NCBI RefSeq assembly: GCF_034351645.1
Contig: NZ_CP133782.1
Span: 2,485,001 to 2,549,000 of the forward strand
Source of the DNA: Pseudomonas sp. DC1.2
GTDB taxonomy: Bacteria; Pseudomonadota; Gammaproteobacteria; Pseudomonadales; Pseudomonadaceae
Length of the DNA stretch: 64,000 bases
Reading direction: 5' to 3'
Below, piece by piece: positions 2,419 to 24,989 of this stretch. The notes under the pieces were generated by a model that worked only from the letters and a program-made list of their open reading frames with translations, made no database searches and was not told where the DNA came from. Each line of letters opens with the position of its first letter. Positions within the stretch are counted from its first letter, which is position 1. The translations under genes were made by a program, and so were the position numbers.

Positions 2419-3732
2419 ATGGTTGATCATTCAATGCAATCCTCCACACCCCGTCGTTCCCGTCGCTGGCTGTTCGGCCTGCTTGTCCTGTTGATTATCG
2501 CGGGCGCGTGCTGGAAATTCTGGCCTGCCGGCAATAACCATGAGGCCACAACGAACAAAGCTGCCGCTGGGCATACGGGTAAGGCGGGGGGGATGCGTCC
2601 AGGATTTGGCGGGGCGACCGGGCCGATCCCGGTGCGCGTGGCGCCGGCGGTCAAAGGGGACTTCCCGGTCTATTACAAGGCCTTGGGCACCGTCACGGCG
2701 CTGAACACCATCAATGTACGCAGCCGGGTGGCTGGCGAGTTGATGAAGGTGTCGTTCGAGGAAGGCCAGATGGTCAAAGCGGGTGATCTGCTCGCCGAGA
2801 TTGATCCGCGTCCTTACCAGAACGCCTTGCTCCAGACCGAAGGCACGCTGTTACAGAACCAGGCGCAACTGAAAAACGCTCAGGTGGATGTCGAGCGCTA
2901 TCGCGGCCTGTTCAAAGAGGACAGCATCGCCAAGCAGACCCTGGATACCGCTGAAGCGCTGGTCGGCCAGTACCAGGGGACGGTCAAGACCAACCTGGCC
3001 GCCGTCAACGACGCCAAGCTCAACCTCGAATTCACCAAAATCCGTGCGCCGATTGCCGGGCGTGTCGGCTTGCGTCAGCTTGACGTCGGCAACCTGGTCG
3101 CGGCCAACGACACCACAGCGCTGGTGATCATTACCCAGACCCAGCCGATCAGCGTCGTCTTCACCTTGCCGGAGAACAGCCTCGACACCGTATTGGCACG
3201 CTATCACTCGGGCGCTAAATTACCCGCCGAAGCCTGGGACCGTGGCGACACGAAATTGCAGGCGACCGGCGTGTTGCAGAGCCTGGACAACCAGATTGAC
3301 GTCAGCACCGGCACGCTGAAGTTCAAGGCGCGCTACGACAACCGTGATCAGTCGCTATTCCCTAATCAGTTTGTGAACCTGCACTTGCTGGCCGACACCC
3401 TCAAGGGGGTGGTGCTTGCGCCATCGGCAGCTATCCAGTACGGCACCAACGGCACCTTCGTCTACGCGCTGGATGGCGACAAGAAGGTCACGGTTCGCCA
3501 ATTGAAAGTTGGCCCGAGCGACGGCAACAACACCGTAATTACCGAAGGCCTGGCTGTGGGCGATCGCGTCGTCCTCGAAGGCACCGACCGCTTGAAGGAA
3601 GGCAGCGAGGTGGAAGTGGTCAACGACACGCCACAAGTTCCGAGCACTGCGGCCGAAAACCTGCCAGGCAAGCCGGCCGCCGGTACTCCTGATGCCGCCG
3701 TTACCGACAAGGCGAAAAAGGGCGGCGCATGA
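2419..3732 (+). CDS. muxA: RND efflux periplasmic adaptor subunit (MuxA/MdtA type)
   Basis: This is a membrane fusion protein that bridges an inner-membrane RND pump to an outer-membrane channel. One N-terminal membrane anchor ([18 protein letters not shown]) is followed by the biotinyl-lipoyl half motif [20 protein letters not shown], an alpha-helical hairpin of about 80 residues, and the second lipoyl half ([20 protein letters not shown]). I chose the ATG at 2419 ([13 protein letters not shown]), giving 437 residues. The frame is open 14 codons further up and another ATG lies at 2434; neither has a clear ribosome site, so the start is uncertain by a few codons. The stop overlaps the next ATG in ATGA. 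The order adaptor-pump-pump-channel is that of P. aeruginosa muxABC-opmB and enteric mdtABC. Confidence 0.93.
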
Positions 3733-9937: not shown

Positions 9938-11415
9938 CTGACCGTTCGCTTATCACTCTGGCTACACCGCTGGCCATGGCTCGGGGCTCGCGTTTGCTGA
10001 GTCTGTCGTTGTGCGTGGCAATGCTCAGCGCTTGCGCGGTCGGTCCCGATTACCAGCGCCCGCAAACGGCTGAACCGGCACAGTACAAGCAAGCCGAAGG
10101 CTGGCGGCAGGCCAACCCGAGTGATGCCTTGGCACGCGGCGCCTGGTGGGAGTTGTACGGTGATCAGCAGCTCAACGGTCTGGTCGAACAACTCAATAGC
10201 GCCAACCAAACGGTGGCCCAGGCCGATGCGCGCTATCGGCAGGCCCAGGCGTTGGTGAGCACCGCCCGCGCTGCGTTTTATCCCACCATTGATTTGAGCG
10301 CTGGAAAAACCCGCTCCAGTCAGGGCGCCGGCAGCAGTAGTTCAAGCCTGAGCAGTTCTTCCAGCGGTATTCGTGATACCTACAACGCTCAATTGGGGGT
10401 TAGTTGGGAAGCCGATATCTGGGGCAAATTACGCCGTGGCCTGGAGGCCAACGAAGCCAGTGCCCAGGGGAGCTTTGCCGACCTCGCCGCGATGCGCCTG
10501 AGTCAGCAGTCGGAACTGGTGCAGAATTATTTGCAGTTGCGGGTGATCGACCAGCAGAAGCGTTTGTTGGAATCAACGGTCGAGGCGTACCAGCGCTCCC
10601 TGCAGATGACCCAGAACCAATACCGCGCCGGTATTTCCGGGCGCTCCGCCGTGGCCCAAGCCCAGACGCAGCTCAAATCCACGCAGGCCAGTCTGGTGGA
10701 TTTGATCTGGCAGCGTGCCCAGTTCGAAAACGCCATTGCGGTGCTGATCGGCTTACCGCCGGCGCAGTTCAACCTGGCTGAAACCCAGGGCATTCCGGCG
10801 CTGCCGCAGATTCCCTTGAACCTGCCGTCGCAACTGTTGGAACGCCGACCGGACATTGCGTCGGCCGAACGTTCGGTGATTGCCGCCAACGCCAACATCG
10901 GGGTGGCGAAAGCCGCTTACTACCCGGACTTGAGCCTGAGCCTCAGCGGTGGTTACAGCAGCAGTACCTCCAGCAACCTGATCAGCTTGCCAAACCGCTT
11001 CTGGTCGGTGGGGCCGAAAGTGACGTTGCCACTGTTCGACGGCGGCGCGCGTTCGGCGGATGTCGATCGCAATGAAGCGCTGTACGACGAAACCGTGGCC
11101 AAATACCGCCAGACCGTACTGGATGGCTTTCGCGAGGTGGAAAACTACCTGGTGCAGCTCAAAGTCTATGAGGACGAAGCAGCGGTGCGCCAGGAAGCGC
11201 TGGACGCCGCTCGGGACTCCCTGCGCCTGACACAAAACCAGTACAAGGCGGGCTTGATTGCTTATCTGGACGTGGTGGTGGTTCAAGCGACGGCACTGAG
11301 CAATGAGCAAAGCGTCCTGACGTTGATGCAGAGCCGATTGATCGCCAGTGTGCAACTGATTGCCGCGCTCGGTGGTGGTTGGGACGGGCAGTTGCAGAAG
11401 GCGGAGAAGCCCTGA
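9934..11415 (+). CDS. opmB: outer-membrane efflux channel lipoprotein (OpmB/OprM family)
   Basis: An NodT/TolC-family outer-membrane factor. The ATG at 9934 overlaps the muxC stop in ATGA and gives 493 residues; the frame is open far upstream but that part is muxC sequence. A lipobox lies near residue 30 (LCVAMLSACAVGPDYQRP), so the mature lipoprotein should start at that cysteine. Two OEP repeats follow, each with the usual ending (QMTQNQYRAGISGRSAVAQA and LRLTQNQYKAGLIAYLDVVV). A serine run (GAGSSSSSLSSSSSGI) sits at the position of the first exposed strand and may be a strain-variable loop. It completes the tripartite pump. Confidence 0.93.
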   Translation: MTDRSLITLATPLAMARGSRLLSLSLCVAMLSACAVGPDYQRPQTAEPAQYKQAEGWRQANPSDALARGAWWELYGDQQLNGLVEQLNSANQTVAQADARYRQAQALVSTARAAFYPTIDLSAGKTRSSQGAGSSSSSLSSSSSGIRDTYNAQLGVSWEADIWGKLRRGLEANEASAQGSFADLAAMRLSQQSELVQNYLQLRVIDQQKRLLESTVEAYQRSLQMTQNQYRAGISGRSAVAQAQTQLKSTQASLVDLIWQRAQFENAIAVLIGLPPAQFNLAETQGIPALPQIPLNLPSQLLERRPDIASAERSVIAANANIGVAKAAYYPDLSLSLSGGYSSSTSSNLISLPNRFWSVGPKVTLPLFDGGARSADVDRNEALYDETVAKYRQTVLDGFREVENYLVQLKVYEDEAAVRQEALDAARDSLRLTQNQYKAGLIAYLDVVVVQATALSNEQSVLTLMQSRLIASVQLIAALGGGWDGQLQKAEKP

Positions 11416-17687: not shown

Positions 17688-18560
17688 TTAAATTGATGCC
17701 GCTGCCAAACGCCTAAACTCCCGTGGTGAACGGTATTTCAGCGCGCTGTGCGGATGCTCCTCGTTGTAATGCTCAAAGGCAATCGTCAGGTTACGCAAGG
17801 CTGTTTCCCGGTCAGGTTTGGGCATGTGCGCGACGTAGTCGCGTTTCATCGTTTTGACGAAGCTCTCGGCCATGCCGTTGCTCTGCGGGCTACGCACCGG
17901 TGTGGTCACCGGTTGCAAACCGATCTGTCGGGCAAACTGGCGTGTCTGTTCAGCGATGTAGGCCGAGCCATTGTCGCTCAGCCATTGCACCGGGGTGGCA
18001 GGCGCCTCTTCACCGAAGCGTTTTTCCACCGCCTCCAGCATCAGATCACGGATATCGTCGCCGCTGTACCCGGTCGGGCTGGCCACCCAACCGATGGCTT
18101 CGCGGTCGCAGCAGTCCAGGGCAAAGGTCACGCTCAGCTTGGCGTTATCATCACAGCGAAACTCAAACCCGTCCGAGCACCACCGGGTATCGCTGGTGGC
18201 CACGGCAATTCGGCCTTCGTGACGGCGTGCCACACCCGGTTGTTTAATCCGTCGCTCCAGCAGCAACTGATGATCGCGCATGACGCGATAAACCCGCTTG
18301 ACGTTGATCGGCGCCTGACTCTGCTTTTCACGCCGACGACGCAGCAACCCCCACACACGGCGGTACCCGTAGCTGGGCAGTTCACTCACTTCAGCCTGAA
18401 TTTCTTCGACCAGTGCGGCATCGTCCAGCGCAGGGCGACGCCGCTCGACCTGAGCATTTGGGTTGAGTCGAACCGTCAATTGCGAGCGCGCTACACCGAG
18501 ACTTTCACTGATCAGCTTCACTGGTCGTCCCCCGGCAACAAGGGTGAGTGCGCAATCCAT
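17688..18560 (-). CDS. IS3/IS2-type transposase OrfB (DDE integrase)
   Basis: From the internal ATG at 18560 ([20 protein letters not shown]) the product has 290 residues. It matches the IS2 OrfB plan: an HTH_21 segment ([35 protein letters not shown]) followed by the rve core with [20 protein letters not shown] (first D), [20 protein letters not shown] (second D) and [20 protein letters not shown] (E). The frame is open upstream to 18740, as needed for an OrfAB fusion by -1 frameshifting. I do not see the canonical A6G slippery run; AAGAAAAC near 18610 is the nearest thing, so the shift site is unproven. Confidence 0.93.
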
Positions 18561-18904
18561 TTTCGCGACCGAGCAATCTCCACAGCTTCCTGAAGGATCT
18601 CGACCTGCATGGTTTTCTTGCCAAGCATGCGCTGTAGCTCGCGGATCTGCTTGAGCGCATCGGCCAGCTCGGAAGCGGGCACCACGCTCTCCCCAGCACT
18701 GACAGCCGAGAGACTGCCGCTCTGATAGAGCTTGCGCCACTGAAACAACTGGTTGGCATTCACGCCATTCTGTCGAGCCACCACCGAGACGCTTTGCCCC
18801 GGTTGCAGGCTCTCGCGAACCATGGCCAGTTTTTGCTCCGGGCTCCAGCGGCGACGCCGCTCCTGACCCAAAAGCTCCCCACCCTTATCGTTTCTATTAG
18901 TCAT
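18518..18904 (-). CDS. IS3/IS2-type transposase OrfA (HTH protein)
   Basis: 128 residues from the ATG at 18904 ([20 protein letters not shown]). A HTH_Tnp_1 domain is clear: [40 protein letters not shown]. It is followed by a coiled-coil leucine zipper ([20 protein letters not shown]) and the conserved IS2-like end [12 protein letters not shown]. It overlaps orfB by 43 bases in the -1 frame. OrfA alone regulates the promoter in related elements; the OrfAB fusion is the transposase. Confidence 0.93.
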
Positions 18905-18974
18905 ATACACAGTCGTTTGCCTATCCCTTATGTTAAGGGGGAAACGGTGTCCTGTCTTTCAGGGGGCTCGTCCA

Positions 18975-18979
18975 GTGTT
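18975..18979. repeat. 5-bp target-site duplication, right copy
   Basis: GTGTT directly after the inverted-repeat end of the insertion sequence, identical to 17646-17650. Confidence 0.9.
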
Positions 18980-19110
18980 GATCCGGGTCAGTCAAATCAT
19001 CGAATCACGGTCGGTGGCCTTTAATCACTTAAGACAATCAACGGCGACGGTTAGGGCGTCAGCCTCTGCTTCGCTCATATTCTCCACGCTCGCTTCTGCG
19101 TTGAAGCGGT

Positions 19111-19141
19111 AAAAAACCGAGAGGGCGTGAAGCCCCCTCGG
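19111..19141 (-). terminator. intrinsic terminator of the accessory operon
   Basis: Read on the minus strand, CCGAGGGGGC at 19141-19132 pairs with GCCCTCTCGG (one mismatch) and is followed by TTTTTT (19116-19111). It lies eight bases past the stop of the 66-residue gene and would end transcription arriving from 22-19 kb. Confidence 0.9.
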
Positions 19142-19148
19142 CGGGTAC

Positions 19149-19349
19149 TTAACTGTACTCGATGGCTCCAATGGAGGTTTTTGATAAGTTCGACTGGAAG
19201 CTGTTGTTACGGGCCCGCCAATTTGGACCCAGCCAGGTTGCGATGGTGATCTGGAGCGCAGCATTGTGGACGTGTTTAGTGGTTTTCCAATAAACAATCT
19301 GAGTGGCTCCGGTAACAGTGTCTTCGAATTTTTCTTGACTGTACGCCAT
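19149..19349 (-). CDS. small protein of unknown family, 66 residues
   Basis: Starts MAYSQEKFEDTVTGATQIVY and ends SKTSIGAIEYS. The ATG is preceded by ACGAGGTAAAAAATC, a good ribosome site, and the stop is followed at once by a strong terminator, so it looks like the last gene of the minus-strand operon begun by the two larger proteins. No signal peptide or membrane helix; tryptophan and aromatic residues are frequent (VYWKTTKHVHN, ATWLGPNWRARNN). I do not recognise it. Possible roles are a chaperone, immunity or accessory factor for its neighbours, but nothing in the sequence decides this. Confidence 0.75.
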   Translation of the reverse strand: MAYSQEKFEDTVTGATQIVYWKTTKHVHNAALQITIATWLGPNWRARNNSFQSNLSKTSIGAIEYS

Positions 19350-19465
19350 GATTTTTTACCTCGTTCATTCCATTAAAAACATAGGTTTGGTGGTGCGTGT
19401 GTGGCTCGTTACTCATCTGTTTTGGTCATTGCAGTCCTCCTTGGTCAGCGCTTGAAAAAGTTCGG

Positions 19466-20659
19466 TCAGTGCGAGGTCGGGTTACTGATCACGCCGAGCA
19501 GCACCGGCAGGTTCGAATCCCGTGCGTCAAAATGAATATCAACGGCACCCGAGCTGCCGCTTGCCCCGGCCGGGAGTTGTACGGTTGCCGTCGCCTGGAC
19601 GTTGAACGGCCCGATGCGCGTGACCGAGTTGGCCAAACCTTGGGCCTGCGCCAGGTTGCTGGCCCTCAGCGTCAGGTGCGGACGAAAGCCCACCACGGCA
19701 TGGCTGGGCAGCAGGCCAATGGCGCCGTTGGCACTGAAAAAATCGGCCGCCGCGGGCGGTATCGGGTAACGGGCGCCGTCAAAAAAATTGGCGTTAAACC
19801 AAGCGGAAGCGCTGAGTGCGAAGCGTGAAAATTGCTCAACCGACAGGCTCATGGTGATGGAGGTGCTGCTGAGGTTACTGAGTGCTATCGAGCGGGTATT
19901 GGCGGCGCTCAGCTCAATAAATGCCGGCCAGTCGGCAGCGGTCAGCATTTGCGTGAGTACGGTGTGGCTGGATGACGAGGGCAGGTTGATGGCGACGCTG
20001 TCAAGCAGGGTCATCGGAGCGCTACTGCGCAGCAACCCGTTGCCACGCCAGACGGGCAGGGTCTGGGCCCACTGCTCAAGGGTGTATCCGGGGCATTGAA
20101 AAATCGTGGTGTCGGCAGTGCCAGCCGTCATGTTGAGTGATGTCGGTTGCTGAAGAGAGGCCAGCCAGCACTGATCCATTGCCGTAATAATCTGCGGTGC
20201 GCAGGCGTTGCAGGCGCTCTTGAGCGATTGATGCGCCGCTGCCAGGCTGGCGGCATTCGTGGTGGTGTTTGCCGTGCGTAAACCTGTCTGAGCCCCGGCG
20301 GTTTGAGACGCGCGCGTGGCTAGCAGCAGTTGCCGATAGTGTTCGAAATTGATCGGCGCTGCCGCCGTGTGAGCGTTTGCCTGTAAGAGTAGGGGGGAGG
20401 GTGCAGCGTCTTGAAGCAGATAGCTGAGGTAAACCCAGTAAGACGAAAACAGTCCGCTGTGGGGTGAATAGCTGCCGTTGGGTGAGGGGATGCCATTGCC
20501 CAGTTGATAGATGCTCCAGTTACACACGCCGGTATCCGGGCTGCCAAGGTCACTGAAGGTATCGATGGCCGCGACCGAAAAAATCTCGCTACCCGTCACG
20601 TGCGCCCAATGGGCAAGGGTCTGCGTATAAAGCTGCCACATTGATGAGTCGCTTGGCAC
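19466..20659 (-). CDS. unrecognised beta-rich protein, paralogue of the upstream gene
   Basis: 397 residues from a GTG at 20659 that has AGGGAGC nine bases before it; the first ATG (20641) lacks such a site. It is a diverged paralogue of the next gene upstream. The N-terminus shares DLGSPD...NGIPSP...SGLFSSYWVYL with DLGNPN...GDVVPA...SGLLSAYATFL. The C-terminus shares HAVVGFRPHLTLRASNLA, RIGPFNVQATATV and SNLPVLLGVIS with VGFEPTVTLKMSAS, GIGPFRLGSLKG and STLPILLGVIS. No signal peptide and no long hydrophobic helix are present; serine/threonine-rich alternating stretches suggest beta strands. I do not recognise the family. A secreted or pore-forming role is possible but is only inference. Confidence 0.8.
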   Translation of the reverse strand: MPSDSSMWQLYTQTLAHWAHVTGSEIFSVAAIDTFSDLGSPDTGVCNWSIYQLGNGIPSPNGSYSPHSGLFSSYWVYLSYLLQDAAPSPLLLQANAHTAAAPINFEHYRQLLLATRASQTAGAQTGLRTANTTTNAASLAAAHQSLKSACNACAPQIITAMDQCWLASLQQPTSLNMTAGTADTTIFQCPGYTLEQWAQTLPVWRGNGLLRSSAPMTLLDSVAINLPSSSSHTVLTQMLTAADWPAFIELSAANTRSIALSNLSSTSITMSLSVEQFSRFALSASAWFNANFFDGARYPIPPAAADFFSANGAIGLLPSHAVVGFRPHLTLRASNLAQAQGLANSVTRIGPFNVQATATVQLPAGASGSSGAVDIHFDARDSNLPVLLGVISNPTSH

Positions 20660-20740
20660 GGTCAGTGCTCCCTGTTTTGGCGCGGATCCAGAGGCGGTCC
20701 ACCCTTTGCCGAAAGGCGAAGGGCAACCGCTGGCGAAGGC

Positions 20741-22099
20741 CTAGACGCCGAGTTTTTGACTGATCACACCCAGCAATATCGGGAGCGTGCTGCTTAGCGG
20801 GCCGATGGTCACGGACGCGGTGGCATCGTCGTATTTGATGTTTTGCTTGGTGCCATTAGCTGAACCTTTGAGCGACCCAAGACGGAATGGACCGATACCG
20901 ATTGAGGTGGTGGCGGTCGCGTCCCAGCTGCTTTTGACATTGCTGTAATCGCTGGCGCTCATCTTCAGCGTGACTGTTGGCTCAAAGCCCACCACCACTT
21001 GGGTGGCGATAGCCGACAAAGCGCCATCGTCACCAAAGAAAATCGGCGCGTTGGGTTTCAGTTTTTTGCTGTTTAACGCCACCAGCGCACTGTCCCACCA
21101 CTGCCCGGGGCTGACCATAAAACTGCCAAAACCGGTGAAGTCGACTTGCAAGGAAAAGTCGCTGCTGGAGGTGTCGATGCTGGTTTTTTGGCCGCTGGCC
21201 GAGCCGCCCAGGGAAAAGCTGAAGAAGTCTCCGAACAGACTGGCATTGGCCGACGTGCTCCAGCCCGACTTGTCCAGATTGTAGGTGGCAGTGCTCGACG
21301 TAATGGTGATCGAGGCGCCAGCATTGGTCTTGCCGGCAACGCTAGCGGCTTGCCATTCGGCATATTTGGTGCCAAACGCCTGGAGGGTATAAGACGGTGC
21401 GAGTGATGACACCTGGGCGCTCACGGGGGGCGGAGTCGTCCCTCCAATCACGACCGGTTGACTGCCTGGCGGCGAGACGGAGCCGGAGGTGACGGCCATG
21501 TTGAACGCGTTCGCCCCCAGCAAGCTCTGCGCACCGTTAATGCCGACTTTTGTCCGCGCCGTTTGAAGGACGCTGTAGCCCGGTCCATACATCGCAATCA
21601 TCGATTGTTCGTAGGCGCTGGCAGCGCCGATCAGCGTGTTATTCGCTGCGATATAGGACGGGTAGCTTTGTCCTACCCAATCCTGGAAGGCAGGGAGGTT
21701 GGGGAAGACATTTTTGGCGCTGGTGTAGGCGGTAAAGGCTTGCACTTGCACGCTATTGAAGCCTGTCTGCGCGGTATTGAGGTTGGTGGTCGCGATCGAA
21801 ACCTGACTCGCCAGGTTCGGGTTGAGTACAGCACCTGGATCGATCCAGTCGAGAAAGGTCGCATAAGCAGACAGCAAGCCACTGCCCGCCGAGTAGGATG
21901 GGCTGTTAGCCGGCACCACATCACCCAAGCCATGGATGTAGTAGTTCTGGATACTCGGGTTGGGATTACCCAGATCAATGTTAAGGGTGGTTGAACCTGC
22001 ACTGAATCGCTGAGTTTCACCAAGGCCACCCGGCAGTGCCACGGCCTGAACAGCGCCCATCCATTTTTGCCACAGATCCAACGTATCAATGTTAGCCAT
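20741..22099 (-). CDS. unrecognised beta-rich protein with paired paralogue downstream
   Basis: 452 residues, ATG at 22099 with TTGGAGCGATAAAAA before it. The N-terminal 150 residues seem helical (ATTNLNTAQTGFNSVQVQAF), then a proline-rich linker (VVIGGTTPPPVSAQ), then a Ser/Thr-rich half with alternating small and hydrophobic residues: NASLFGDFFSFSLGGSASGQ, TSIDTSSSDFSLQVDFTGFG. The last 90 residues are the module shared with the downstream paralogue (VGFEPTVTL, GIGPFRLG, STLPILLGVIS). No export signal is seen. The alternation resembles membrane-inserting beta hairpins of pore-forming proteins, but this is a pattern observation only; the function is unknown. Confidence 0.8.
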   Translation of the reverse strand: MANIDTLDLWQKWMGAVQAVALPGGLGETQRFSAGSTTLNIDLGNPNPSIQNYYIHGLGDVVPANSPSYSAGSGLLSAYATFLDWIDPGAVLNPNLASQVSIATTNLNTAQTGFNSVQVQAFTAYTSAKNVFPNLPAFQDWVGQSYPSYIAANNTLIGAASAYEQSMIAMYGPGYSVLQTARTKVGINGAQSLLGANAFNMAVTSGSVSPPGSQPVVIGGTTPPPVSAQVSSLAPSYTLQAFGTKYAEWQAASVAGKTNAGASITITSSTATYNLDKSGWSTSANASLFGDFFSFSLGGSASGQKTSIDTSSSDFSLQVDFTGFGSFMVSPGQWWDSALVALNSKKLKPNAPIFFGDDGALSAIATQVVVGFEPTVTLKMSASDYSNVKSSWDATATTSIGIGPFRLGSLKGSANGTKQNIKYDDATASVTIGPLSSTLPILLGVISQKLGV

Positions 22100-22102
22100 T
22101 TT

Positions 22103-22288
22103 TTATCGCTCCAAATCGGTTGGGGAAACCGAGCATCGCGGCCAGTACCGCGACCTCCTGAGACGATCAGTGCAGGACTGCCTGCAGCTCTCGTCTGAAA
22201 CAAAGGCTAACGTGTGTTCGACGCTGTGAACCTGTACGCAATGCTGATTTATGGTCTCCAAAAGACTGATTCTTTCCTCGGTATTCAT
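22103..22288 (-). CDS. possible small gene between regulator and beta-rich proteins
   Basis: A 61-codon frame starting MNTEERISLLETINQHCVQV and ending PTDLER, whose TAA lies three bases before the ATG of the 452-residue gene; the ribosome site of that gene is inside its last codons. The N-terminal half is protein-like and the tight junction suggests coupling, but the C-terminal half is Arg/Ser-rich and no clear ribosome site precedes the ATG. It overlaps nothing. Either a real small gene or leader sequence of the downstream mRNA. Confidence 0.35.
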   Translation of the reverse strand: MNTEERISLLETINQHCVQVHSVEHTLAFVSDESCRQSCTDRLRRSRYWPRCSVSPTDLER

Positions 22289-22305
22289 ACCGACGCCCGT
22301 CAGCG

Positions 22306-22956
22306 TTAAAGCCATCCTTCGCGCAGTGCATAACGTGTCAGTTGTGCGATGCCCTTGAGGTTTAGCTTGCTCATGATGTGTTCGCGGTGCGTACTCACGG
22401 TTTTGCCACTGATGTGCATGCAGTCGGCAATCGCTCGGGTGGTGAGCCCCTCCACCAGCAGTTGCAGGATTTGCCGCTCCCGTGGGCTGAGGCTTGCCGC
22501 TGCGCAGGCGGGGGTTTTGGTGTGGGTCAAGCGCTGGCTCAAGACCATCGCCGTGGCGATTTCCGGCGACAGGTAGCCTCGTCCCTGAGCCACGGTGCGC
22601 ACGGCTTTGACTAACTCGTCGGCGGCACAGTCCTTGAGCAGATAGCCTGAGGCGCCGGCGTCCAGCGCCGCGCTGATGCGGCGTTGTTCACCGTGGGCTG
22701 AAACGCATAAAAACCGCAGGGCTGGAACCAGTTTGTGCGCCCTCGTGATGGTGTCGATGCCGTTCAAGAGCGGCATCTCCAGATCGATAATCATCAGATC
22801 CGGAGGCTGTGGGGCAATCAACGCAAGCGCCTCAAGGCCATTGGCCGCCTGACCGACAATGCGTAGGTCGTGCTCACTGAGCAGCAACGCGGCGAGGCCT
22901 TGGCGAAACAGGCTATGGTCGTCGACCAGCAAAATTTTCAGCGGTGCAGGGCTCAT
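22306..22956 (-). CDS. NarL/FixJ-family response regulator
   Basis: 216 residues from the ATG at 22956, which overlaps the stop of the kinase gene in ATGA; longer forms of the frame run into that gene. The receiver domain has ILLVDDHSLFRQGLAALLLS, the phospho-acceptor D in LMIIDLEMPLLNG, and K in YLLKDCAADE. A LuxR/GerE HTH follows (LSPRERQILQLLVEGLTTRA, HISGKTVSTHREHIMSKLNL). With the upstream kinase it forms a two-component pair. Its closest candidate targets are the genes directly downstream at 22-19 kb. Confidence 0.93.
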   Translation of the reverse strand: MSPAPLKILLVDDHSLFRQGLAALLLSEHDLRIVGQAANGLEALALIAPQPPDLMIIDLEMPLLNGIDTITRAHKLVPALRFLCVSAHGEQRRISAALDAGASGYLLKDCAADELVKAVRTVAQGRGYLSPEIATAMVLSQRLTHTKTPACAAASLSPRERQILQLLVEGLTTRAIADCMHISGKTVSTHREHIMSKLNLKGIAQLTRYALREGWL

Positions 22957-23639
22957 GAGCGGTTCCTCGCGGAATGACACCCGCGATGAGTGGGCACGAG
23001 CAGACGCACGAAGGTGCCACGGCCCAGCTCTGAGTCCAGTAGCACGCGTCCCTCCAGCGGCTTGAGTTGCAGCGCAATGCTGCGCAAACCAAAGCCGCCC
23101 CACTGACCCTTAAGTGCCGGCGCGAAACCATGGCCATTGTCTTCTACGCACACCGTGAGGCTGTGCTCGTGGCACGCAGAGCTGAGCGTCGCCTGCGTTG
23201 CGCCGCTGTGCTTGCGGACATTGGCCAGCAGCTCGCTGACTGCGCGCAATAAAGTCTGAGTGATGCTGTCCGCTAGCGGTATGGGTGGGCCTTGCAGGTT
23301 CAGAACAATGGTTGGGGCGTCGGGAAAACGTTGCTGCATGCCCAGAACCAGCCCTCGAAGCGCGTCGTCCAAGGATTGACGCGGCATCGGCTCGTTCCCC
23401 AAATTTTGCACCACCGTGCGCAGGCTCGCGCTGGCCTCATGGATCAGGCGCTGTAATTGCTCAATCAGTGGCTGCAGCGCAGGTGCTGCTGCGTGTCGTT
23501 GCAGTTCGGCCAAGCACAATTGGGCGAGGGCCAAGTGTTGCCCCGCGTGGTCGTGCAGGTCACAGGCGATACGCAAACGTTCGTTTTCGATGGCCCCGAG
23601 GCACGCGGGCGGACAGGCACACTTGTGTTGGCGTGACAT
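22953..23639 (-). CDS. short soluble histidine kinase (HisKA_3/NarX type)
   Basis: 228 residues. The HisKA_3 dimerisation box is ERLRIACDLHDHAGQHLALA with the phospho-histidine in LHDH. The ATPase part has the N box (LLRAVSELLANVRKHSG), G1 (VEDNGHGFAPALKGQWG) and G2 (GGFGLRSIALQL). There is no membrane helix and no sensor domain, only a 15-residue N-terminus with three cysteines (HKCACPPACLG, C7, C9, C13), which could bind metal or an Fe-S cluster or react to redox state. The kinase may otherwise be driven by a partner protein. The start has GGAGACAAGG upstream. Coupled to the response regulator by ATGA. Confidence 0.92.
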   Translation of the reverse strand: MSRQHKCACPPACLGAIENERLRIACDLHDHAGQHLALAQLCLAELQRHAAAPALQPLIEQLQRLIHEASASLRTVVQNLGNEPMPRQSLDDALRGLVLGMQQRFPDAPTIVLNLQGPPIPLADSITQTLLRAVSELLANVRKHSGATQATLSSACHEHSLTVCVEDNGHGFAPALKGQWGGFGLRSIALQLKPLEGRVLLDSELGRGTFVRLLVPTHRGCHSARNRS

Positions 23640-23769
23640 TCCTTGTCTCCGTTAACGAGGCTGACGCCCGGGCGGCTGCTCGAGTGATTCAGTTATGGCA
23701 TTTCGCCGTTACATGATTGGAGACAGTTTGCGAGTCCGGCAATACCACCGATGGCGTAGTAGCGATGCT

Positions 23770-24042
23770 TTAGCTGGCCGGCCTGATCAGTTGTTGGTCC
23801 AGGCAATAGCGCACGAGCTGCACGATGCTGCTGATGGCCAGTTTTCGATACAGATTTTCTCGGTGTTTACGCACCGTCAGGTCACTGACACCCAACGCTT
23901 GGGCAATTTCCTTGCTGGTGCGACCGCCCGCGATCAGCCGCGCGATTTGTTGTTCTCGGCGCGACAGCGGGGAAGAGGAACGGCCGGGTGGGGGCGCGGG
24001 TTCAGCCGTGATCTGATTCAGCGCTTGTTCGACGAAAGTCAC
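23770..24042 (-). CDS. LuxR-type HTH protein, single domain, 90 residues
   Basis: Consists almost only of a GerE/LuxR DNA-binding domain: LSRREQQIARLIAGGRTSKE, QALGVSDLTVRKHRENLYRK. There is no receiver or ligand domain. The only start candidate is a GTG at 24042 that lies 41 bases inside the preceding LuxR-like gene, an unusually long overlap. It may be expressed by coupling, or the two may be the pieces of a former double-HTH protein. Confidence 0.75.
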   Translation of the reverse strand: MTFVEQALNQITAEPAPPPGRSSSPLSRREQQIARLIAGGRTSKEIAQALGVSDLTVRKHRENLYRKLAISSIVQLVRYCLDQQLIRPAS

Positions 24043-24238
24043 GCTCTACGGCAAACGCGCAGAGCTGCGCCGAATGGGTCAGACCCTTTTTAGCCATGAT
24101 GTTGCTGCGATGTTTACGAACGGTCAGAGGGCTGATGTGTAACTGCAGGGCAATCGCCCTACAGTCCAGGCCCAGGCTGATCAATCGCATCACCTCGCGC
24201 TCCCGTGGCGTCAGTGGTTTGAAGTTGACCGGACTCAA
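24002..24238 (-). CDS. LuxR-type HTH protein, single domain, possibly 5'-frameshifted
   Basis: From a TTG at 24238 the product has 78 residues, nearly all GerE HTH: LTPREREVMRLISLGLDCRA, QLHISPLTVRKHRSNIMAKK. The frame continues upstream as IQIGRPAHDVG before meeting a TGA at 24289 without an ATG or GTG. A 37-codon ORF with a good ribosome site (24235-24348) ends in a TTGA overlap with this TTG. So either the TTG is used by coupling to that leader, or one base was lost near 24285 and the original protein began MINASKITTALAQAK. Confidence 0.7.
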   Translation of the reverse strand: MSPVNFKPLTPREREVMRLISLGLDCRAIALQLHISPLTVRKHRSNIMAKKGLTHSAQLCAFAVERDFRRTSAESDHG

Positions 24239-24348
24239 GCCGACATCATGTGCTGGCCGGCCAATCTGGATGACCGCCGCGCCGGATCATCGGTGTGAGG
24301 CAACTTGGCCTGCGCCAAGGCAGTCGTGATCTTGGATGCATTGATCAT
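24235..24348 (-). CDS. 37-codon leader ORF or detached N-terminus of the LuxR protein
   Basis: MINASKITTALAQAKLPHTD followed by DPARRSSRLAGQHMMSA. GGGGAGCTCGATA before the ATG is a strong ribosome site, much better than any available to the LuxR frame. The TGA overlaps the TTG of the next frame by two bases (TTGA). The first 21 residues look like a natural protein start while the rest is less protein-like, which fits a frameshift near 24285. Confidence 0.5.
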   Translation of the reverse strand: MINASKITTALAQAKLPHTDDPARRSSRLAGQHMMSA

Positions 24349-24528
24349 TATCGAGCTCCCCGTAGCCTTGCCTCGAAGTGACCGGCCCTGATAGACACAC
24401 AGGATAGTTCAAAAAACTTCCAGTCTTCGAGTGGGGTGGCGGAGCAGTCGCTGTGTTTAGAAAAGCCCGAATCAAAGGTCGGGGGGGTACTAAAGGGAGG
24501 TGCAGAGGGCGCTGATTTTCAGGAAAGG

Positions 24529-24579
24529 CGACAGGCGGTAGCGTTCATGTTCGAGACGCTAACTGAATCACGCCTGTCG
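24529..24579. repeat. nested inverted repeats, possible structured RNA or terminator
   Basis: CGACAGGCG (24529-24537) pairs with CGCCTGTCG (24571-24579), and inside it TAGCG (24539-24543) pairs with CGCTA (24557-24561). It lies just past the stop of the proline-rich gene on the minus strand. No T-run follows, so a terminator role is uncertain. Confidence 0.4.
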
Positions 24580-24600
24580 GCATCTATAACTACGCTTGTC

Positions 24601-24762
24601 TCAAGCCTTCAACGGCGGCGCTTCATTTGGCGGGTCGCCCACAGGCGGCTGGATACCTGGCGGTATCGGGTCTTGCTCAGGGACAGGCTGAGGGTCTGGA
24701 GGTGGAAGCGTCGGGTCGTCGATGTTGGGATCGGGGGTTTCAGCCGGTATTGGAATATTCAT
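24601..24762 (-). CDS. proline-rich small protein, 53 residues
   Basis: Starts MNIPIPAETPDPNIDDPTLP and ends PVGDPPNEAPPLKA. Almost half the residues are Pro, Asp or Glu, so it is acidic and probably disordered. GAGG lies eight bases before this ATG; an ATG two codons earlier is too close to it. I believe similar small proteins occur in other pseudomonads, but no function is known to me. Transcribed divergently from glgE. Confidence 0.65.
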   Translation of the reverse strand: MNIPIPAETPDPNIDDPTLPPPDPQPVPEQDPIPPGIQPPVGDPPNEAPPLKA

Positions 24763-24989
24763 GAACATGGCCTCATTTCTGCTTCTTATCAAACAGGAGT
24801 TAAGCCATTGACCTTAAGACTGAGCCATTGATTCCCGATTTTTTAAGGAAACCGACACGGGCAAATTTCTGTGAACTTTTACCGGGGCCAGTCGCTCGGA
24901 ACTTAAGCGAGTTCACTGCGGGCCGCGTGGTCGATCTGCAGGAACACCAGACACAAGAGCGTCCTTGGGGCGTTAAGGAGAGATGCTCG

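Follow-up and report, generated by a model that had tools for sequence, protein, structure and literature searches.

A co-encoded paralogue pair on a regulated cassette of Pseudomonas sp. DC1.2 as a candidate two-subunit toxin

Long and short paralogues of the CDC-like proteins (CDCLs) of Elizabethkingia are encoded by adjacent genes and make up one bicomponent pore former (PMC11952106, PMC7527733). CDCLs serve antibacterial antagonism, and a membrane-bound inhibitor is reported for some of them (PMC11952106). The binary proteins PIP-45, PIP-74 and Xpp84-Xpp85 are encoded as operon pairs in Pseudomonas and Chryseobacterium, act in the insect larval gut and require both partners; Xpp84 and Xpp85 comprise 580 and 467 amino acids, Xpp85 is a predicted lipoprotein and no known domain is reported for Xpp84 (PMC9937505). 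Here, we analyze two genes, A and B, in a 64,000-nucleotide stretch of the Pseudomonas sp. DC1.2 genome (NZ_CP133782.1, positions 2,485,001 to 2,549,000), hereafter the window. A and B are paralogues, encoded together at all loci examined; in Pseudomonas and Cupriavidus they are accompanied by a response regulator and, 5' of A, by a conserved repeat. Our preferred interpretation, held tentatively and slightly short of an even call, is that A and B form a heteromeric toxin, one subunit each, and that the cassette encoding them regulates itself and was acquired horizontally.

Paralogy and pairing of A and B

An earlier sequence-only reading had described open reading frames of 452, 397 and 66 residues, and these are present as described, all on the minus strand. 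The terminator it reported after C exists as well, just outside the range it gave:
20741-22099, minus strand: gene A, 452 amino acids, long paralogue with a helical-hairpin section at residues about 94-185
19466-20659, minus strand: gene B, 397 amino acids, short paralogue of A with a GTG start, evolving faster
19149-19349, minus strand: gene C, 66 amino acids, small protein without signal peptide
19116-19142, minus strand: intrinsic terminator 3' of C, 11-bp stem plus T run

The intergenic gaps are 81 bp (A-B) and 116 bp (B-C). The GTG start of B at 20659 is backed by homologues, the database call (P0041, 391 amino acids) beginning 6 codons later. A and B match each other by BLASTP in two blocks (E 3e-11, 27-31% identity), and comparison of A-family with B-family profiles aligns 383 columns (probability 100, E 3.9e-59). 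The N- and C-terminal blocks from which paralogy had been proposed therefore reflect homology rather than chance.

A protein search with A listed 40 proteins including A itself, at 31-88% identity to the other homologues, and one with B listed six besides B; only roughly 8,000 candidates sharing most words were scored in these searches, and the family may be larger. The A-family alignment (A1) contains A and 29 of the other 39 listed proteins, 30 rows in total, with ten close relatives left out. Searching with the mixed profile A3 yielded 17 proteins, of which 4 were already known; the 13 others measure 375-429 amino acids. An A-profile genome scan identified 13 loci in Pseudomonas, Cupriavidus, Rubrivivax, Janthinobacterium, Pseudoduganella and Methylotenera, all 13 of which encode a second paralogue 3' of A; in L013-L016 this second paralogue is as similar to A as to B, or more. 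Together with the window, three further loci of the same genus (L040-L042) and a Cupriavidus plasmid locus (L045), A and a paralogue are found together in 18 of 18 distinct loci, which bears out the paired architecture that was to be sought in other genomes. L038, L039 and L043 were taken as L006, L004 and L008 again and counted once, while Cupriavidus matches H1 and H3 and locus L082 stand outside the locus counts. In a genus sample, A occurs in 7 of 398 genomes (own genome included), with B beside it in all 7; in a phylum sample, the only one of 398 genomes with A is the window's own. In Cupriavidus basilensis OR16 (L009, 9463-10681), B is split over two reading frames, representing either a disrupted gene or a draft-assembly error.

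Compared with the Pseudomonas farris locus (L004), differences at codon positions 1/2/3 number 34/32/141 in A, 85/65/137 in B and 9/5/28 in C. With differences concentrated at third positions in A and C, constraint at the protein level is clear for these two and weaker for B. Mean protein distances across one shared set of 78 locus pairs are 0.54 for B and 0.27 for A; both the distance table and A3 omit the split B of L009.

C is constrained but not a universal operon member, being present in 12 of the 18 loci, window included. L007 carries two divergent tandem copies of C (10776-11289). Four Cupriavidus loci (L010 at 10753-11016, L009, L012 and L045) encode an extra conserved 87-amino-acid protein between B and C. 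L005 (8620-9114) and L006 (8929-9423) are without C and have a 164-amino-acid lipoprotein-like open reading frame about 220 bp 3' of B. In Janthinobacterium and Pseudoduganella (L014, 10749-11865; L015, 5436-6526), the pair is followed by an unrelated 90-amino-acid protein and an Rv2525c/GH25-like glycosidase, assigned by PF08924 in L014 and by homology in L015, which perhaps acts as a release factor.

The earlier statement that no named family fits also stands. Neither A, B nor C reaches the curated cut-offs of Pfam or NCBIfam, PADLOC gives no row for A or B, and PDB sequences queried with A, A1, A3 and a distant relative from genome G155 (see below) gave no row or E values of 0.25 and above. 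Rows far below the cut-offs were set aside: B matched Endotoxin_mid at 13 of 22 bits (E 0.073) and Tic110 at E 1.6, and A matched two oxidoreductase models at 13-15 of about 400 bits (E 0.0085 and 0.035). A PADLOC row for C as ZorC (E 0.02) was likewise dismissed, and the PADLOC rows of the response regulator were attributed to common domains. No A-family matches were found in viral contigs or phages, no near-identical plasmid copies of the cassette were found, and open-licence PMC literature yielded no published description of the pair among the matches listed. By these sequence comparisons, the A/B superfamily has no family model in the libraries searched.

AlphaFold models of A and B (pTM 0.81 for both; pLDDT 78 and 80) share the order of their elements, namely an N-terminal helix, a short strand, helices, a helical section and a C-terminal sheet. 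The sheet contains two long strands and is closed by an LPxLLGVIS strand; the helical section is a long hairpin in A (94-185) and shorter in B. In element order the single models agree with a relation between the two folds, but they are not independent, the alignment used for B having included A-family rows. 'Beta-rich' holds for the C-terminal sheet and misses the large helical part (residues 94-185 of A). For B, one central bent sheet is plausible. A BFVD fold search of B gave nothing below E 0.1, and VIA rows, covering the helical hairpin of A and mostly helical bundles for B, were dismissed as common arrangements.

Control genes, candidate operator and cassette borders

The boundaries first drawn around the three genes (19149-22099) proved too narrow, missing regulatory genes and an operator candidate that travel with the pair:
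19102-24262, minus strand: entire cassette, delimited by homology to loci L004 (P. farris) and L040 (G237)
22244-22271, minus strand: candidate operator, direct repeat AATCAG-N16-AATCAG, 172 bp 5' of A
22306-22956, minus strand: NarL-type response regulator, receiver PF00072 and GerE helix-turn-helix (HTH) PF00196 (Pfam)
22953-23639, minus strand: sensor histidine kinase, HisKA_3 and HATPase, overlapping the response regulator by 4 bp
23770-24042, minus strand: HTH-only LuxR-type regulator 1, 90 amino acids from its GTG, named by eye
24002-24238, minus strand: HTH-only LuxR-type regulator 2, 78 amino acids, named by eye
18976-19073, plus strand: scar, left over from a small gene of which G005 and G011, both without the cassette, have an intact copy

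The response regulator, scanned with 3 extra N-terminal codons, is present in 14 of the 18 loci, the kinase, in which no membrane segment was seen by eye, in 12, and the HTH-only tandem in 15, including three without response regulator. L007 and L042 gave no kinase match, and the kinase is therefore dispensable or replaceable. The motif AWTCAG-N16-AWTCAG matches once in 64 kb and never in 100 shuffles. It lies 152-182 bp 5' of A in 14/14 loci with the response regulator and in 0/4 without, and its spacing is 16 in all but L042, where it is 17 and the regulator is most divergent (52%). Relaxing the spacing to 14-18 adds two window matches far from A and none off-site in the other 17 loci. The 14 loci represent fewer independent events, because L010/L045, L005/L006 and L008/L041 are close. 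We infer that the response regulator binds this repeat. No sigma-70-like promoter was found in 19000-24900. An inverted repeat, TCGGTT-N4/5-AACCGA (22116-22132, minus strand), lies immediately 5' of A's ribosome-binding site; most aligned Pseudomonas loci retain it exactly or almost so, Cupriavidus does not, and it is a candidate hairpin or operator.

Comparing the whole window by blastn with the L004 and L040 loci, which include about 6-7 kb of flank per side, yields one 5.2-kb block at 79-80%. The sole other piece, 92 bp in L004, reaches 24435, so that this edge is placed only to within about 170 bp. Four relatives that lack A (G005, G006, G010 and G011) have sequences matching the window flanks (about 17.6 and 24.6-24.9 kb) at a distance of 0.5-1.2 kb, compared with about 7 kb in the window. 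These four come from 19 genomes searched with each flank, which gave matches in 11 and 18, own included. In G004 both flank matches are on one contig 3.0 kb apart; in the remaining genomes one flank is unmatched, or the two matches are widely separated or fall on separate contigs. Given the proximity of the flanks in A-less relatives and the scar, arrival by insertion with loss of local DNA appears most likely. No recombinase was seen among the cassette genes. Beside the scar, 17688-18910 (minus strand) contains two overlapping frames that we take to be transposases typical of an IS3-type element; the sides of this segment are under 100 bp apart in G005 and G011. The open reading frame between the flanks in G005, G010 and G011 is presumably MgtC-like.

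Distant relatives on plasmids

A tblastn search with A revealed a 466-amino-acid protein (P0061) on a Klebsiella IncFII plasmid, to which the A profile aligns along 365-395 columns with probability 98, compared with at most 31.6 in 30 block shuffles; its gene had no match in E. coli genomes. In this locus (Klebsiella michiganensis, L044, 5065-6865), a TRL-family lipoprotein follows 13 bp on, a possible toxin-immunity pair. A looser profile search found a 472-amino-acid protein in G155 (same genus, E 0.004). Alone, it stays at shuffle level against A1 (probability 66.8); it led to Hyphomicrobiales plasmid proteins. The resulting five-member family A4 (rhizobial members and G155) matches A1 over 380 columns (probability 96.5, E 9e-10; best control E 6e-5 in 30 block shuffles, 0.009 and 0.016 reversed). 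The mixed profile A3 matches A4 partially (probability 84, 187 columns), and the profile of B itself does not reach it (probability 25.6). The G155-type family is rare (1/398 phylum and 1/348 genus genomes). Neither Pfam nor NCBIfam families above cut-off were found for the distant relatives, nor cassette regulators among their annotated neighbours.

A4 genes form tandem paralogues in Rhizobium (30% identity) and Sinorhizobium (20%) and are single in Acuticoccus, so that 2 of 3 plasmid loci are paired. A small lipoprotein gene adjoins the 3' side in 2 of the 3 single-gene relatives opened (Klebsiella and G155), an OmpA-family gene in Acuticoccus. In G155 (L050, 784-2612), the A homologue overlaps the 137-amino-acid lipoprotein gene by 4 nt, and a nearby open reading frame (2856-3476 region) is presumably integrase-like. 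Both Sinorhizobium members have signal-peptide-like N-termini, judged by eye. This lends only indirect support to the proposal that A and B are secreted, whereas, as that proposal had itself recorded, A and B have no signal-peptide-like N-terminus; a crude hydropathy test gave this result and the same one for C.

Proposed function and comparison with known systems

We hypothesize that the cytoplasmic sensor kinase would phosphorylate the NarL-type regulator, which would then bind the AWTCAG direct repeat and turn on A-B-C. Since A and B lack a Sec signal, they would exit the cell by lysis or another non-Sec route and could assemble together on a target membrane. A, the more conserved long subunit, may act as a scaffold, while B, which evolves faster, would adapt to targets or partners, and C may aid folding, storage or release. 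The target would most likely suffer membrane damage through a bent beta-sheet like that of gasdermin, MACPF or CDC proteins.

Several results limit the pore-forming part of this interpretation. The membrane-damage step is backed by weak fold matches only, the best Foldseek rows of B, bacterial gasdermins 7n52, 7n50 and 7n51, being below significance. Of two candidate amphipathic transmembrane hairpins in A, the first (281-314) is not supported, its period-two signal staying at shuffle level over 30 rows (mean z -0.16), and the amphipathic test is weak for the second (396-434, z 0.70). The alternation described earlier does occur in strands 314-333 (z 2.1) and 362-380 (z 2.5). Of the claim of a two-component pore-forming or secreted system, the pairing holds in 18/18 loci and pore formation stays hypothetical. 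We regard as doubtful a bolder version in which A/B would be a further, new branch of giant beta-barrel pore formers next to MACPF, CDC, CDCL and gasdermin. In that version they would work as an obligate long/short heteromer, would have passed between Pseudomonas and Cupriavidus as an entire unit including two-component switch and operator, and would go back to secreted pairs on rhizobial plasmids.

It is similarly unlikely that A/B belong to, or act like, the PIP-45/PIP-74/Xpp84-Xpp85 insecticidal binaries. That group is partly found in Pseudomonas and has adjacent unequal genes, members active when tested in pairs and no known domain reported in Xpp84, but Xpp84/85 have 580 and 467 residues with Xpp85 a predicted lipoprotein (PMC9937505), against 452/397 signal-less residues in A/B. 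In addition, our genome scan, which reaches fairly close relatives and in which these species' inclusion was unchecked, gave no locus in P. brenneri, P. rhodesiae or Cellvibrio. A CDCL-type toxin pair directed against competing bacteria, with immunity provided by a lipoprotein or C, is rather improbable. CDCLs offer antibacterial antagonism, long/short pairs and, for some, a membrane-bound inhibitor (PMC11952106), and small lipoprotein genes stand next to the Klebsiella and G155 homologues, once overlapping by 4 nt; the Acuticoccus neighbour, however, is an OmpA-family protein, the cassette is without lipoprotein, and C is signal-less and absent from 6/18 loci. We give little credence to a self-directed cell-death or lysis module following bacterial-gasdermin logic, in which regulator-induced A/B would open the producer's own membrane: missing export signals, a dedicated regulator and the gasdermin-like fold hint would fit, but PADLOC is blank for A and B, no protease occurs among the cassette genes and the Sinorhizobium homologues are signal-like at the N-terminus. 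Non-toxic structural, matrix, storage or adhesive proteins forming a polymer are very improbable too, since their patchy, inserted distribution with own regulators would be unusual for a housekeeping structure, although A/B contain Ser/Thr/Gly-rich low-complexity stretches and invariant A-family columns are mostly Gly, Pro, aromatic or aliphatic, with no catalytic-looking polar cluster.

From Pseudomonas to rhizobia, mobile DNA repeatedly carries members of the A/B superfamily as pairs of paralogues, and the window cassette supplies a complete control circuit with a testable candidate operator. If A and B are a bicomponent toxin, they would provide a further lineage with which gasdermin and complement-like pores can be compared, and environmental bacteria would possibly possess an insecticidal or antibacterial agent that is new.

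Among known systems, the P0061 protein and A4 are homologous to A (365-395 and 380 columns) and paired at 2/3 plasmid loci, but differ in having lipoprotein or OmpA-family neighbours or signal-like N-termini. No Pfam MACPF row was obtained for A or B, and the MACPF signature pattern is found in 0/30 A1 and 0/32 A3 rows. The likeness to bacterial gasdermins lies in the statistically weak Foldseek rows of B, whereas A/B comprise two genes, no cassette protease and a large helical section in A; fused gasdermins are likewise reported without adjacent protease gene (PMC11952106). Compared by description, the PIP-45, PIP-74 and Xpp84Aa-Xpp85Aa binaries share a two-gene operon, unequal components and partly the genus Pseudomonas, and differ in length and in the lipoprotein signal that A/B lack; they may be the closest ecological analogue. 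As in some CDCLs only, a long and a short paralogue are encoded together in A/B, but the defining F/Y-F/Y-Xn-YGR motif occurs in 0/30 A1 and 0/32 A3 rows and there is no sequence match. Heteromeric giant pores and activation by proteolysis are further traits of CDCLs. By analogy, CDCL long/short pairs would be the closest functional counterpart of A/B.
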